NCBI RefSeq assembly: GCF_000425225.1
Contig: NZ_AULJ01000013.1
Location: 1-45,696, forward strand
Reading direction: 5' to 3'
Length of the DNA stretch: 45,696 nt
Origin: Pontibacillus marinus BH030004 = DSM 16465
GTDB lineage: Bacteria > Bacillota > Bacilli > Bacillales > BH030062
Under the pieces are notes generated by a model. The model was not told where the DNA came from and did not search any database. It saw only the letters and a program-made list of their open reading frames with translations. Below, one piece after another: positions 1 through 42,663 of the stretch. A program made the translations under genes and the position numbers. Within the stretch, counting starts at the first letter, position 1. Each line of letters opens with the position of its first letter.

Positions 1-342
1 GTAGTTCTGGGAGAGAGTGTTCTAATTCCAGGTTAATCCTATCATGACAAGGGTCTGAGCAACTTCTCTTACTATGATTTCCAATCAATATGAGGTGGGG
101 AAAGCCAAATTATGGTCCGTTAGTTTCCATAATCGCGTGGAGGGAAGGAAACGGCAAACTGTCGTGGTAACAAAGGCAAGACGAGACCCCGCAAGGAGCG
201 TAGCGTATGAGGAGGCTCGGCTTGTCTTCCACAACAGGCTTGCCGTTTCACTGACCGGAACAAATTACTCAACAGCAACGGACTTCTCCCAACCAATATC
301 TCGGAATCAAGTCTTCAACAATCCTGCCATAAAGCTGAATAA
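1..342 (+). repeat. Foldback intergenic repeat, copy A (left part missing)
   Basis: This is the right half of a repeat found four more times in the window. It contains the centre segment (1-115) and the right hairpin module, whose arms GAAACGGCAA (about 148-157) and TTGCCGTTTC (240-249) are perfectly complementary. The end carries AATCAAGTCTTCAACAATCC and GAATAA (337-342), the same end as copies B and D. The left module lies outside the window. A 103-codon open frame at 74-385 runs through the repeat and is not considered a gene. Confidence 0.85.
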
Positions 343-380
343 CTTTAAGGTAGGACTTCACCATTTTCATTTGTTCTTGA

Positions 381-7206: not shown

Positions 7207-7332
7207 TTAACTACGCAGCTATATCCATCTAAAGAGGGATTTTCCTTTATAGCACACCTCTACTTTCCCAAAATCCTAAAAAAACTGTTAAAATAGGTGT
7301 ATTCAATATTTTAATAGAGAGAGTGAGCATTG

Positions 7333-11381: not shown

Positions 11382-11390
11382 CACGTTTGG

Positions 11391-11440
11391 ATGTCTAGCT
11401 CCAGCGCCCATCGTTGCTAAACGGGCGCTTGCGCTTTTCT
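11391..11440. repeat. Short GCGCCC/GGGCGC hairpin repeat
   Basis: A compact copy of a repeat that begins ATGTCTAGCTCCAGCGCCC and ends ACGGGCGCTTGCGCTTTTCT. The two ends pair (GCGCCC with GGGCGC) across a loop TCGTTGCTAAAC. A second, much longer copy lies at 22625-22960. Repeats with these ends are familiar between Bacillaceae genes; no coding potential. Confidence 0.85.
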
Positions 11441-11478
11441 AATAAATATTTCAACATATTACAGTTTTGATGATACCA

Positions 11479-15686: not shown

Positions 15687-16313
15687 TTATTCAAGGATAG
15701 CTCCCTGTTGTTGGAGACTTAGATTCGAGATAAAGTGCGTATGATTCCGTTGCTTTTGTTGAGATCGGCGGGCTGTGGAACGGGTTGCTTTCCCCGGAAG
15801 ACCGATCGAGCTTCCTCGTCACTTCGTTCCTGCGGGATCTCGCTCGCCCTTTCTACCGGAGGAGTCAACCCGTTCCACAGCCCACCTTAGCCGAATGGAG
15901 ATTAACGGAACCGCCGTAATTCTGGGATGAGGTGTTCTGTTTCCAGGTAGTATAAGCCTATCATGACAAGGCTCTGAACAACTTCTCTGAATATGATTTC
16001 CAACCAACATGAGGTGGGATAGTCAAATTATGGTCCGTTAGTTTCTATAAACGCGTGGAGGGAAGGAAACGGCAAACTGTCGTGGTAACAAAGGGAAGAC
16101 GAGACCCCGCAGGCACGAGAAGGCTCGGCTATACAATGGAGGTTCTACTAAAACTGCCACATCATGTGGCAACGTAGAACTACCCCACGTCGTGTGGGGC
16201 AACAACAGGCTTGCCGTTTCACTGACCGCAACAAACTACTCAAAAGTAACGGACTTCTCCCAACCAATATCTCGGAATCAAGTCTTCAACAATCCTGCCA
16301 GTTTGTTGAATAA
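15687..16313. repeat. Foldback intergenic repeat, copy B (full length, with hairpin cassette)
   Basis: A complete non-coding element between two convergent genes. Left end: TTATTC, then GACTTAGATTCGAGATA. Right end: TATCTCGGAATCAAGTC, then GAATAA; these form an imperfect terminal inverted repeat of about 50-60 bp. The left module has a perfect 18-bp stem (15770-15787 with 15866-15883). The right module has arms GAAACGGCAA (16066-16075) and TTGCCGTTTC (16211-16220). The left module resembles the reverse complement of the right module (shared CGAGC-TCCTCG, CTGCGGG-TCTCG and CCCTTT blocks), so the whole element is a foldback. A three-hairpin cassette (about 16131-16202) interrupts the right module. 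Confidence 0.88.
16142..16199. repeat. Three-hairpin cassette inside repeat B
   Basis: An outer stem GTTCTAC (16142-16148) / GTAGAAC (16174-16180) encloses an inner hairpin GCCAC-ATCAT-GTGGC (16156-16170). A third hairpin follows directly, CCCCAC-GTCGT-GTGGGG (16183-16199). Related cassettes lie in repeat C and, inverted, in the repeat at 22.6 kb. Confidence 0.85.
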
Positions 16314-16321
16314 AACCTCCA

Positions 16322-22592: not shown

Positions 22593-22624
22593 AAGGTAAA
22601 GAAAGTATAAGATGTAGCTCTTAG

Positions 22625-22960
22625 ATGTCTAGCTCCAGCGCCCAGCAACGAATGGACTTGGGCCCACACGACGTGGGTCAGATCGACGTTGTCACAGGAC
22701 GTGACGAACTTAGTCGATCATTCTTTCTCCGTACGATAAGTCAACATCGATTCACCAAGGTTCATCGTGTTTCCTTTACACGTTTGCGATATGAAATTTT
22801 AACAAAGAAGGAACTCGAAGTAGTTAAAATTTCTAGGTGAAAGTACCACAGCAACTAAGCTTCTGTCTGCGCCTGTGGCTTGCCAATCAGCAAGTTTTGT
22901 TAATCGTACTACGGGCTCAGTCCAGTCCCTTCGTTGCTAAACGGGCGCTTTCGCTTTTCT
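22625..22960. repeat. Long GCGCCC/GGGCGC repeat with internal hairpin cassette
   Basis: This has the same ends as the 50-bp repeat at 11391-11440 (ATGTCTAGCTCCAGCGCCC and CGTTGCTAAACGGGCGCTT), but with about 286 bp between them. AGCAACGAA-GGACT near the left pairs with AGTCC-TTCGTTGCT near the right. Inside are CCCAC-ACGAC-GTGGG (22663-22677) and the nested hairpin GATCGAC..GTCGATC (22681-22719). CCACAG..CTGTGG and CTTGC..GCAAG hairpins lie further right. It ends at the acuC stop codon. A 71-codon open frame starting at 22625 lies within the repeat and is not called a gene. Confidence 0.85.
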
Positions 22961-28934: not shown

Positions 28935-29176
28935 TATTTAAATATTGAGCGTTGAAGGGTTGCAGTAATGATTTGTTTTCTGATTTTAGAGAGCTGACGG
29001 TTGGTGAAAGTCAGTACAGAACAAATTGTGAATTACGTCCTGGAGTATCTTCTGCGAAATCAGAAGACGGTTAAAAACCGTTATTTTTTCCGAGTGGTAA
29101 CAAGATTTCTTGTTACAACAAGGGTGGTACCGCGATCAAACCTCGTCCCTTTTTTATGTAGGGCGGGGTTTTTTAT
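28935..29176 (+). promoter_or_regulatory. T-box riboswitch, tyrosine-specific
   Basis: A tRNA-sensing leader of tyrS. The conserved T-box AAGGGTGGTACCGCG is at 29120-29134. Stem I shows GGTGAAAG (29002-29009) and CAGTACAGAAC (29012-29022). The likely specifier is TAC (29034-29036) in GTGAATTAC, a tyrosine codon matching the downstream gene. The terminator is the ACCTCGTCCCT / AGGGCGGGGTT stem (about 29140-29170) followed by TTTTTAT. Uncharged tRNA-Tyr should stabilise the antiterminator that uses the T-box. The 145 bp from here to tyrS hold no other feature I can name. Confidence 0.95.
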
Positions 29177-30645: not shown

Positions 30646-30905
30646 TACTTTAGGAAGGTGGTTTATTCCATTAAATGGAAGTTATCTGGGATAACTGTTT
30701 TCGCAGAAGAGGCGGTTCCGTTCCCTTTGTGGAGTTCGGTGAGCTGGGAAACGGGCTACTTTCCCCGGACGAACGATCGAGCCTCCTCGTTCACTCTGTT
30801 CTCTGCGGGGTCTCGCTCGCCCGTTTTTCCGGAGGAGTCAGCCCGTTTCCCAGCCCACCTTAGCCGAATGGTGACTAACGGAACCGCAGCGCGTTAAGAG
30901 GAGAT

Positions 30906-31094
30906 GCTTGCGGACATTTGTTCCGTTATTTTACCTTAAAATGATTTTTCTGAAGAGCTTACGGACATTCATTCCCCTATTTGCTTCAAATCACCTTGAA
31001 ATAGCCCGATTTGTCACAAATAAGGTACCATATGTCCGTAATGAATCTCGAAATGCCCTTAAAGTTCAAAATAACGGAACAGATGTCCGTAAGG
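30906..31094. repeat. Four-unit CGGACAT inverted/direct repeat block
   Basis: Two units read on the plus strand (30906-30941 and 30957-30993, GCTTGCGGACATTTGTTCCG and GCTTACGGACATTCATTCCC). Two read on the minus strand (31007-31043 and 31058-31094, CATTACGGACATATGGTACC and CCTTACGGACATCTGTTCCG). The outermost units can pair over about 25 bp with few mismatches. No coding potential. Confidence 0.8.
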
Positions 31095-31233
31095 TTTAGA
31101 GCTCACAATACTAGGGTCCGTTAATTTCCATAAAGGGAAAGGGGTGAGGGAAACGGCAAACTCCCGCGGTAGAAAGGGCGGACGAGATCCCGCAGAGAGC
31201 TTGCGAACGAGGAAGCTGAAAATAAACAAGGAA

Positions 31234-31291
31234 GATCGACTAAACCCGCCACATCGTGTGGCAACGTCGACCTACCCCACGTCGTGTGGGG
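31234..31291. repeat. Three-hairpin cassette inside repeat C
   Basis: The outer stem GATCGAC (31234-31240) / GTCGACC (31266-31272) has one mismatch. The inner hairpin is GCCAC-ATCGT-GTGGC (31248-31262), followed by CCCCAC-GTCGT-GTGGGG (31275-31291). The layout is the same as at 16142-16199. Confidence 0.85.
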
Positions 31292-31478
31292 CAGCAGGAG
31301 TATTGCCGTTTCACTGAACCCCTTACTCTCTTTCCGGAAACGGACCTCCACCTCACTAGTTATCTCGAAACCAAGTCTTCAACAATAGGGGGCTTAAATT
31401 GAAGAACCAAATAAACTAAGAAGGTAAACAGATAATAGATGTAGAATAATCCAGTTAACAATAAAGGGAGGGAGAGGT

Positions 31479-42067: not shown

Positions 42068-42622
42068 TTATTCCGCTATAGCCTCCTTATATTGAAGACT
42101 TGGATTCGAGATAGAGTGCGTATGGTTCCGTTGCTATGTGAAGAGCGGCGGGCTGTGGAACGGGTTGCTTTCCTGCGGACGAACTATCGAGCCTCCTCAT
42201 CCGCTACGCTCCTTGCGGGGTCTCGCTAGCCCGTTTTTCCGCTGGAGTCAACCCGTTCCACAGCCCACCTTTGCCGAATGGTGAATAACGGAACCGCCGT
42301 AATTCTGGGATGAGGTGGTCGGATTCCTGGTAGTGTAACACTATCATGCCAGGGTTCTGAGCAACTTCTCTGAATCTGATATCCAATCAATATGAGTTGA
42401 GAAAGTCCAAATTATGGTCCGTTAATCTTCATAATCGCGTGGAGGGAAGGAAACGGCAAACTGTCGTGGTAACAAAGGGAAGACGAGACCCCGCAGGCAC
42501 GAGGAGGCTCGGCTTTTCTTCCACAACAGGCTTGCCGTTTCACTGACCGGAACAAATCACACAACAGCAACGGACTCCTCTCAGTTTCAAGTCTTCCACA
42601 ATCCTGCCATTTAACGGAATAA
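42068..42622. repeat. Foldback intergenic repeat, copy D (full length, without cassette)
   Basis: Ends are TTATTCCG (42068-42075) and CGGAATAA (42615-42622). Inside them, TGAAGACTTGGATTCGAGAT on the left matches the inverted TTTCAAGTCTTCCACAAT on the right. The left module has a perfect 18-bp stem (42150-42167 / 42249-42266), identical to that of copy B. The right module has GAAACGGCAA / TTGCCGTTTC. The centre holds CCTGG..CCAGG around AGTGT/ACACT. The hairpin cassette is absent; the same place reads CTTTTCTTCCACAACAGG. Confidence 0.88.
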
Positions 42623-42663
42623 CTCCCAATAGCTATACCTTTTGATTATTTAAGGAATTGGTT

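Follow-up and report, generated by a model that had tools for sequence, protein, structure and literature searches.

The three-hairpin cassette of 60-70 bases that occurs at three places in a 45,696-nucleotide stretch of Pontibacillus marinus DNA (the window) is an already catalogued motif, RF01690 or "Bacillaceae-1 RNA", and is probably an exchangeable domain, constrained by its structure, of interspersed repeats that are themselves structured and non-autonomous, rather than a stand-alone sRNA gene. The cassette was present in some and absent from other repeat copies that were otherwise equal, it was multiplied in tandem, and its three helices paired through two-sided changes. Weinberg et al. 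2010 (PMC2864571) list Bacillaceae-1 as an RNA of Bacillaceae with the entry 'Y, n, n', that is, certainly an RNA, probably not cis-regulatory and probably not a switch, and Rfam files RF01690 as 'Gene; sRNA'.

The cassette and its family

A sequence-only reading of the window had described the same nested layout at 16142-16198, at 31234-31290 and, inverted, at 22663-22719, and its stem coordinates agreed with the DNA letter by letter (Table 1). The 22.6-kb copy is indeed inverted relative to foldback copies B and C (inverted pairs I6, 81%, and I7, 73%). On the plus strand it has hairpin 1 first, followed by the outer stem with hairpin 2 inside, and B and C have the same order on the other strand. 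The two compensated pairs in the outer stem and the one in the inner stem, counted by that reading between B and the 22.6-kb copy, were recovered; the outer stem of C contains one non-Watson-Crick pair. In the foldback copies A and D, which were said to lack the cassette, the site (~209-240 and ~42501-42530) holds TGTCTTCC and TTTCTTCC, respectively, instead.

Searching the whole window with the Rfam 15 covariance models gave four matches, three to RF01690 at exactly these places and one to a T-box leader (RF00230, 144.9 bits, 28943-29153, plus strand). The cassette is classed as the catalogued motif because all three copies exceeded the RF01690 cut-off, a gathering score of 35, over the full model (positions 1-67). 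These scores, together with the pairing of 70 aligned cassettes compared with shuffled and slid partners (below), argue that the cassette is not a chance structure. The family is described as having RUCCU in its two terminal loops. On the Rfam strand the loops of the 22.6-kb copy are GTCCT in hairpin 2 and GTCGT in hairpin 1 (AGGAC and ACGAC on the plus strand), and those of B and C are ATCAT/ATCGT and GTCGT.

Table 1. Positions in the window of the cassettes, their stems and the repeats that carry or lack them
Feature	Position	Strand	Basis or remark
GCGCC repeat, whole copy	22594..22950 (approximate ends)	+	no copy at the corresponding site of the sister genome, G002; comparison with other copies
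Cassette in GCGCC repeat	22663..22729	- (RF01690 strand, UCCU-type loops)	RF01690, 75.9 bits; letter check
Hairpin 1, CCCAC-ACGAC-GTGGG	22663..22677	+	letter check; covariation helix 1
Hairpin 1 arms	CCCAC 22663-22667 / GTGGG 22673-22677		
Outer 7-bp stem GATCGAC/GTCGATC around hairpin 2	22681..22719	+	letter check; covariation helix 2
Outer stem arms	GATCGAC 22681-22687 / GTCGATC 22713-22719		
Hairpin 2, GTCAC-AGGAC-GTGAC (CAGGACG loop)	22691..22705	+	letter check; covariation helix 3
Hairpin 2 arms	GTCAC 22691-22695 / GTGAC 22701-22705		
Minimal GCGCC element	11390..11445	+	two ends only, without inner modules or cassette
Foldback copy A, cassette-less form (GGCTTGTCTTCCACAACAGG)	1..345	+	
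Foldback copy B, cassette host	15757..16317 (approximate ends)	+	
Cassette in copy B	16132..16198	+ (RF01690 strand)	62.0 bits
Copy B stems	GTTCTAC 16142-16148 / GTAGAAC 16174-16180; GCCAC 16156-16160 / GTGGC 16166-16170; CCCAC 16184-16188 / GTGGG 16194-16198		
71-bp segment of copy B	16131..16201	+	replaced by 8 bp (TGTCTTCC) in the orthologous copy of G002
Foldback copy C, cassette host	30728..31400 (approximate ends)	+	
Cassette in copy C	31224..31290	+ (RF01690 strand)	67.3 bits
Copy C stems	GATCGAC 31234-31240 / GTCGACC 31266-31272; GCCAC 31248-31252 / GTGGC 31258-31262; CCCAC 31276-31280 / GTGGG 31286-31290		
Foldback copy D, cassette-less form (GGCTTTTCTTCCACAACAGG)	42080..42626	+	

Pairing, covariation and conserved bases

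Seventy cassettes picked by hand from 159 loci were aligned with MAFFT and the structure was assigned by hand. The choice passed over low scorers (such as L081, L085, L086 and L097) as well as near-duplicates, so that the alignment leans to well-formed cassettes. Changes on both sides were found in 15 of the 17 base pairs. The paired positions matched in 96.1% of the cells, compared with 72.6% after shuffling and 30.3-33.6% with slid partners, and the covariation score was 0.638 against 0.184 in the shuffles, which preserve column make-up, not relatedness. Watson-Crick pairs filled 1125 of the 1190 cells, the rest being 19 G-T, 12 A-C and 34 others. By comparison, 72 distinct tRNAs from the collected loci, found with ARAGORN, had 101 G-T cells among 1542; this control counts allowed pairs only, so just the G-T frequency is comparable. 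Such a scarcity of G-T pairs is what one would expect of a structure at the DNA level or of one that is neutral to strand. An inference of the strand from G-T versus A-C cells was tried and set aside as not decisive, at 19 versus 12.

The 138 loops of the alignment have the consensus C-A-B-G-A-N-G. The base that follows CA was G in 95, C in 31, T in 12 and A in none, while the next two were G in 133 and A in 136; outside the alignment, A was seen once at the variable position, in hairpin 2 of locus L296 of genome G059. Hairpin 2 is preceded by GTT and followed by TTA, two unpaired stretches that were conserved in the same 70 rows. The predicted folds of both host repeats (z -4.99, -6.44 and -5.48) place the cassette at a multibranch junction above a long terminal stem, and in cassette-less copies of both window host repeats a linker of 8-9 bases lies at that junction.

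Occupied and empty copies of the host repeats

The GCGCC repeat at 22.6 kb gave 70 BLAST pieces in its own genome, where 39 elements with both ends were compared. Hairpin 2 was missing from 11 of these, occurred once in 20, twice in 4, three times in 2 and four times in 2; two of the elements hold runs of N, so that their counts are minima, and many of the loci had been selected for their cassette, so that the shares are no census. Cassette-less copies read GGACTT-CCCTCGCCT-CCGTACG and occupied copies GGACTT-GGG(cassette)ATTCTTTCT-CCGTACG. The long 3' part, a second module, varies independently: elements with it and elements lacking it were found both among occupied and among cassette-less copies. 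As in MITE-like elements, the host repeat has a long terminal stem (terminal inverted repeats), multiple copies and no long open reading frame (none of 120 or more amino acids inside the 22.6-kb copy). One empty site was found for it, in G002. The sequence CGCTTTT(C)TTATAAG, 14-15 bases, flanks the insert at both ends and may be a target duplication or a pre-existing similarity.

In the foldback family, the B-type copies of the same genome and of G002 in which both flanks could be read numbered 10 with and 9 without the cassette, always at one site. A variable hairpin adjoins this site, of the GCACGAGG or the AGGAGCGTAGCGTATGAGG type, and all four combinations with presence and absence of the cassette were found among these 19 copies, which therefore points to exchange between foldback copies.

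The sister genome G002 is ~92% identical and syntenic across most of the window. Its copy B lacks the cassette (Table 1), and the GCGCC element is missing, the terminator-to-gene junction being unbroken there. Given these differences, the host repeats have come to differ in location after the two genomes diverged, and one repeat copy has changed its cassette state. The change at B can be an insertion, a deletion or a conversion; a gain there can have come from a further foldback copy by conversion. For the cassette, no target duplication was seen. In a reverse case, G002 has a foldback-type repeat of ~0.7 kb near 7213 (window 7213-7219), a site that is empty in the window.

The sequence-only reading had taken the cassette for a mobile or exchangeable module. 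Exchangeability is borne out by the occupied and empty copies and by the change in the orthologous copy B. Within families, recombination between copies explains the pattern just as well as autonomous movement of the cassette alone would.

Distribution among genomes

The genome of origin (4.28 Mb, 77 contigs) contains 65 RF01690 matches at an E value of 0.001 or better, 59 of them above the curated cut-off. The motif was found in 33 of 61 genomes when 60 relatives were added, and there was no RF01690 match in G003, a genome of the same genus. With the best 150 candidates scored per genome, there were at least 141 matches in G001 and at least 148 in G041. In a sample of the order, with the best 12 RF01690 candidates scored per genome, 197 of 397 genomes had the motif and 200 were without it. 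A pattern scan of species genomes gave at least 118 stretches with the cassette; the genera among the matches listed were Halobacillus, Pontibacillus, Lentibacillus, Oceanobacillus, Cytobacillus, Peribacillus, Lysinibacillus and Sporosarcina. Two outcomes had been named in advance as speaking against a module: a cassette never found outside the three window sites, and one always present at the same site. Neither was observed, the first in view of these counts and the second in view of the 11 GCGCC elements and 9 foldback copies without a cassette and of the cassette-less copy B in G002.

Plasmid and phage collections queried with the 22.6-kb cassette gave no match at the sensitivity used. An IMG/VR contig of 11445 bases that is classed as viral (L295) carries two cassettes 7 kb apart and may be a misfiled bacterial fragment. 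In two further genomes, cassettes with the top scores of a scan were bunched on one contig each, as if brought by an acquired segment (4 of 4 in G388:C30 and 5 of 8 in G124:C18). Among the 97 listed copies of G175 (contig C1) there were 12 pairs with the two cassettes on opposite strands, minus first and plus second in every case, at a spacing of ~380-420 bases, and three minus-plus pairs lie in the genome of origin (C5:139116-139599, C10:64909-65353 and C25:5339-5803). A strand bias with respect to the replichores is expected of IS200/IS605-type elements, from which the cassette differs: no such bias was seen among the 97, 83 and 24 listed copies of G175, G041 and G017, the origin being assumed at base 1.

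Tandem and nested arrays

Two arrays have several 5' outer arms followed by the matching 3' outer arms in nested order, L108:1410-1700 (G022:C41) and L101:1440-1600 (G011:C12). The former consists of seven units and then five 3' arms. The arms of units 7, 6, 5 and 4 (CTTTCGC, CTTCCGC, CTTTCGC and CTTCTGC) match the first four 3' arms (GCGAAAG, GCGGAAG, CGAAAG and GCAGAAG) in nested order. The arm types of units 4-6 recur in units 1-3, as if by a later duplication, and the last of the five 3' arms does not fit unit 3 exactly. In the minimum-energy fold, units 4 and 7 were paired as in the nested model, while unit 5 paired with the arm of unit 6, and unit 6 itself was left out. In the two-unit array of L101, ACTTCTGT/ACAGAAGT is nested within ACTTAGGT/ACCTAAGT and both stems form in the predicted fold, which was no better than that of shuffles (z -1.06). 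An exact second arm was found in 3 of 255 loci (L101, L108 and L115), compared with a permuted mean of 0.075; nesting is therefore rare. Inner units apparently take the place of part of hairpin 2 in the outer unit.

It is conceivable, but we consider it improbable, that the cassette itself is a minimal mobile unit of ~65 bases that targets structure and not sequence, taking the place of the short linker in a junction of the hairpin or multibranch kind, be it in the GCGCC repeat, the foldback repeat, an rRNA spacer or another cassette. If so, structure-targeted insertion into its own copies would build nested arrays, with the arms in the order of Russian dolls.

Orientation in rRNA operons and next to genes

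Two observations are not accounted for by an exchangeable domain of mobile repeats: the orientation bias in rRNA operons, which would not follow from an element acting purely at the DNA level, and a co-occurrence with csrA above expectation. Consequently, two explanations at the RNA level stay alive. The first is that the Rfam strand, with its UCCU loops, functions as RNA in the transcripts of rRNA and tRNA operons, in processing, in antitermination or as an sRNA released from the precursor, and that the dispersed copies are by-products. The argument for it starts from position: in rRNA operons this strand is the one transcribed in 30 of 32 copies with a detectable rRNA feature, each counted once, from up to 20 genomes. 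A first count had given 13 of 13, with L089 set aside for want of an rRNA feature, and the generalization to every rRNA-operon copy was dropped when a second set (30 loci, two common to the first, 9 without an rRNA feature) gave 19 of 21, the exceptions being the reversed leaders L318 and L321, which count against this explanation.

Some genera also keep a cassette at one position across species. In G050, G240 and G261 it precedes the 16S motif by 72 bases, and in the five genomes examined of genus g22 the 5S motif is ~50-100 bases away, with the cassette in the 23S-5S spacer in the four of them in which both genes are visible. At such fixed positions the stems differ between genera yet stay paired. 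All six matches in G060 are in rRNA or rRNA-tRNA spacers, and 120 of the 138 loops have G-U or A-U as their outermost bases when read on the Rfam strand. However, the stems show no G-U excess on that strand, and the cassette is often absent within the same genera (any match in 5 of 14 genomes of g22 and 7 of 10 of g44 in the order sample, read by eye) as well as from half of the sample, the 200 genomes mentioned above. Moreover, most copies were not flagged near rRNA: the flag was set on 14 of 268 and was reserved for copies that had not already been assigned to a repeat family by motif. That sorting by motif was crude, leaving 150 of the 268 as "other" with known GCGCC copies among them, and it serves the rRNA flag only; in a clustering by flanks, 176 of the 268 fell in one cluster. 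The leaders L318 (G144) and L321 (G218) and the leader L037 (G050) belong to one genus and have the cassette in opposite orientations at a similar distance before 16S, as if it had been inverted in place or inserted twice.

Next to protein genes there was no sense bias, which also counts against this explanation. The GGA strand, opposite to the Rfam strand, was sense in 30 and antisense in 33 cases in a first set and 32 and 26 in a second, and convergent versus divergent gaps numbered 25 versus 9 and 22 versus 17, respectively. These counts refer to open reading frames called by a simple longest-frame rule; the first set, of 142 loci, was counted without 33 in which a frame, mostly a short one, ran across the cassette and without 12 at the edge of a contig, and the second, of 127 loci, without 26 at edges, 2 inside long frames and 2 near rRNA. 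On balance, an RNA function in rRNA and tRNA operon transcripts as the basis of the family appears unlikely.

The CsrA question

The second explanation concerns the opposite strand, which would be a CsrA-binding RNA, a sponge like CsrB with hairpins of the CAGGAYG type; mobile repeats would then scatter decoys for CsrA. Loops of this type are CsrB-like, and the idea was reportedly put forward by Gardner and Eldai in 2014. In that source (PMC4333381), the reverse complement of RF01690 is proposed as a CsrA-binding sRNA and uncertainty about the strand is stated. In the 70 aligned cassettes, GGA occurs in both loops of 33 and in one loop of 26. The cassette was found in 3 of 20 listed csrA-negative genomes (20 of the 22 in all being named) against ~194 of 375 csrA-positive ones, with the best 12 RF01690 candidates scored per genome, and within families the association had a p value of 0.005, or 0.016 with continuity correction, from counts read by eye. 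The near-absence of GGA-sense copies in rRNA operons could reflect counter-selection, and one cassette lies between flgL and yviE-fliW-csrA.

Several observations argue against this explanation. The first G is the most variable base of GGA, as the loop counts above show, and for that reason a CsrA sponge was rejected as the general function and kept as a rival at most. GGA is missing from 25 of 70 and 23 of 70 hairpins and from both loops in 11 of the 70 cassettes, and the hairpins without it keep their pairing (122 of 125 and 112 of 115 cells). Judged by position, the GGA strand is not favoured in mRNAs, and the sense strand of the cassette in the flgL-csrA operon is the UCCU one. The cassette is kept in three csrA-less genomes, G042, G059 and G060, and the ~181 csrA-positive genomes without a cassette are equally unexplained. 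A sponge thus reads to us as decidedly unlikely, a shade more so than a role in rRNA transcripts.

The csrA operon copy is locus L124 (G010:C5:413017-416083), with csrA ~1.4 kb downstream; the gene names flgL-yviE-fliW-csrA are putative and follow the order of the frames. Among the csrA-less genomes, G060 and G042 keep GGA in hairpin 2, and G059 has it in one loop only among 10 copies (hairpin 1 of L298, itself degenerate). A loss of GGA specific to G059 was considered and rejected: in its csrA-bearing sister G096 the foldback-type copies are nearly GGA-less too, with GGA in 1 of 12 loops of six copies, and seven copies of another repeat type keep it.

Proposed mode of spread and implications

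A third explanation, very improbable in our view, is that the cassette has no present function and that template switching, by correcting quasi-palindromes, keeps the hairpins perfect and mimics covariation; the almost entirely Watson-Crick stems and the dispersed, strand-neutral occurrence next to genes would fit, but such a mutational process alone would not hold the unpaired bases that show conservation throughout the order, namely the GTT ahead of hairpin 2, the TTA behind it and CA-GA-G in the loop.

As an exchangeable, structure-constrained domain of interspersed repeats, the cassette would spread chiefly as a passenger of host repeats when these insert in the genome. Repeat copies that share flanks would also pass it to one another by recombination or conversion, and it would only rarely enter a new repeat family or an rRNA spacer. 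Selection presumably sees the folded hairpin pair with the loop CABGAYG on one strand or CRTCVTG on the other, and the pair is most likely the binding site of a putative protein that acts on the repeat DNA or on its transcript.

Counts of "sRNA genes" in genomes of the Bacillus group that are based on RF01690 may mislead, as many of the copies analysed here are a repeat-borne module, and the covariation of the cassette calls for an explanation other than a regulatory RNA gene. The cassette offers a clean natural system for the swapping of folded DNA or RNA domains between mobile repeats. It is also suited to asking how modules reach rRNA operons mostly one way round, and whether scattered hairpins titrate an RNA-binding protein such as CsrA.

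Comparison with known systems

In the part of the literature covered, no title or abstract opening on Bacillaceae-1 RNA or RF01690 presented a mobile or repeat-borne module, and a search by sequence word of the two host repeats gave only unrelated papers among the matches listed. Three other systems bear comparison. REP/BIME sequences and TnpA-REP (PMC8266576) resemble the cassettes as numerous short palindromic extragenic repeats that are often paired or in tandem. However, the 70-row alignment has no conserved GTAG before the palindrome, and the unpaired GTT and TTA are conserved instead. Bcr1 and other structured interspersed repeats of Bacillus, such as Bhal-1 (PMC2267715), are likewise foldable, dispersed and of the same size class; Bhal-1 of B. 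halodurans, a stem-loop family of 74 bp, is compared with the cassette here by its description. With the proposed CsrA-binding sRNA (PMC4333381), the cassettes share a strand of GGA-loop hairpins, but about one third of the hairpins here are without GGA and the copies are not gene-like. Bacillaceae-1 RNA itself belongs to the same structure and sequence family as the window cassettes; unlike the sRNA gene under which RF01690 is filed, the window cassette is a multicopy, exchangeable domain of dispersed repeats that also occurs in tandem and sometimes nested arrays.
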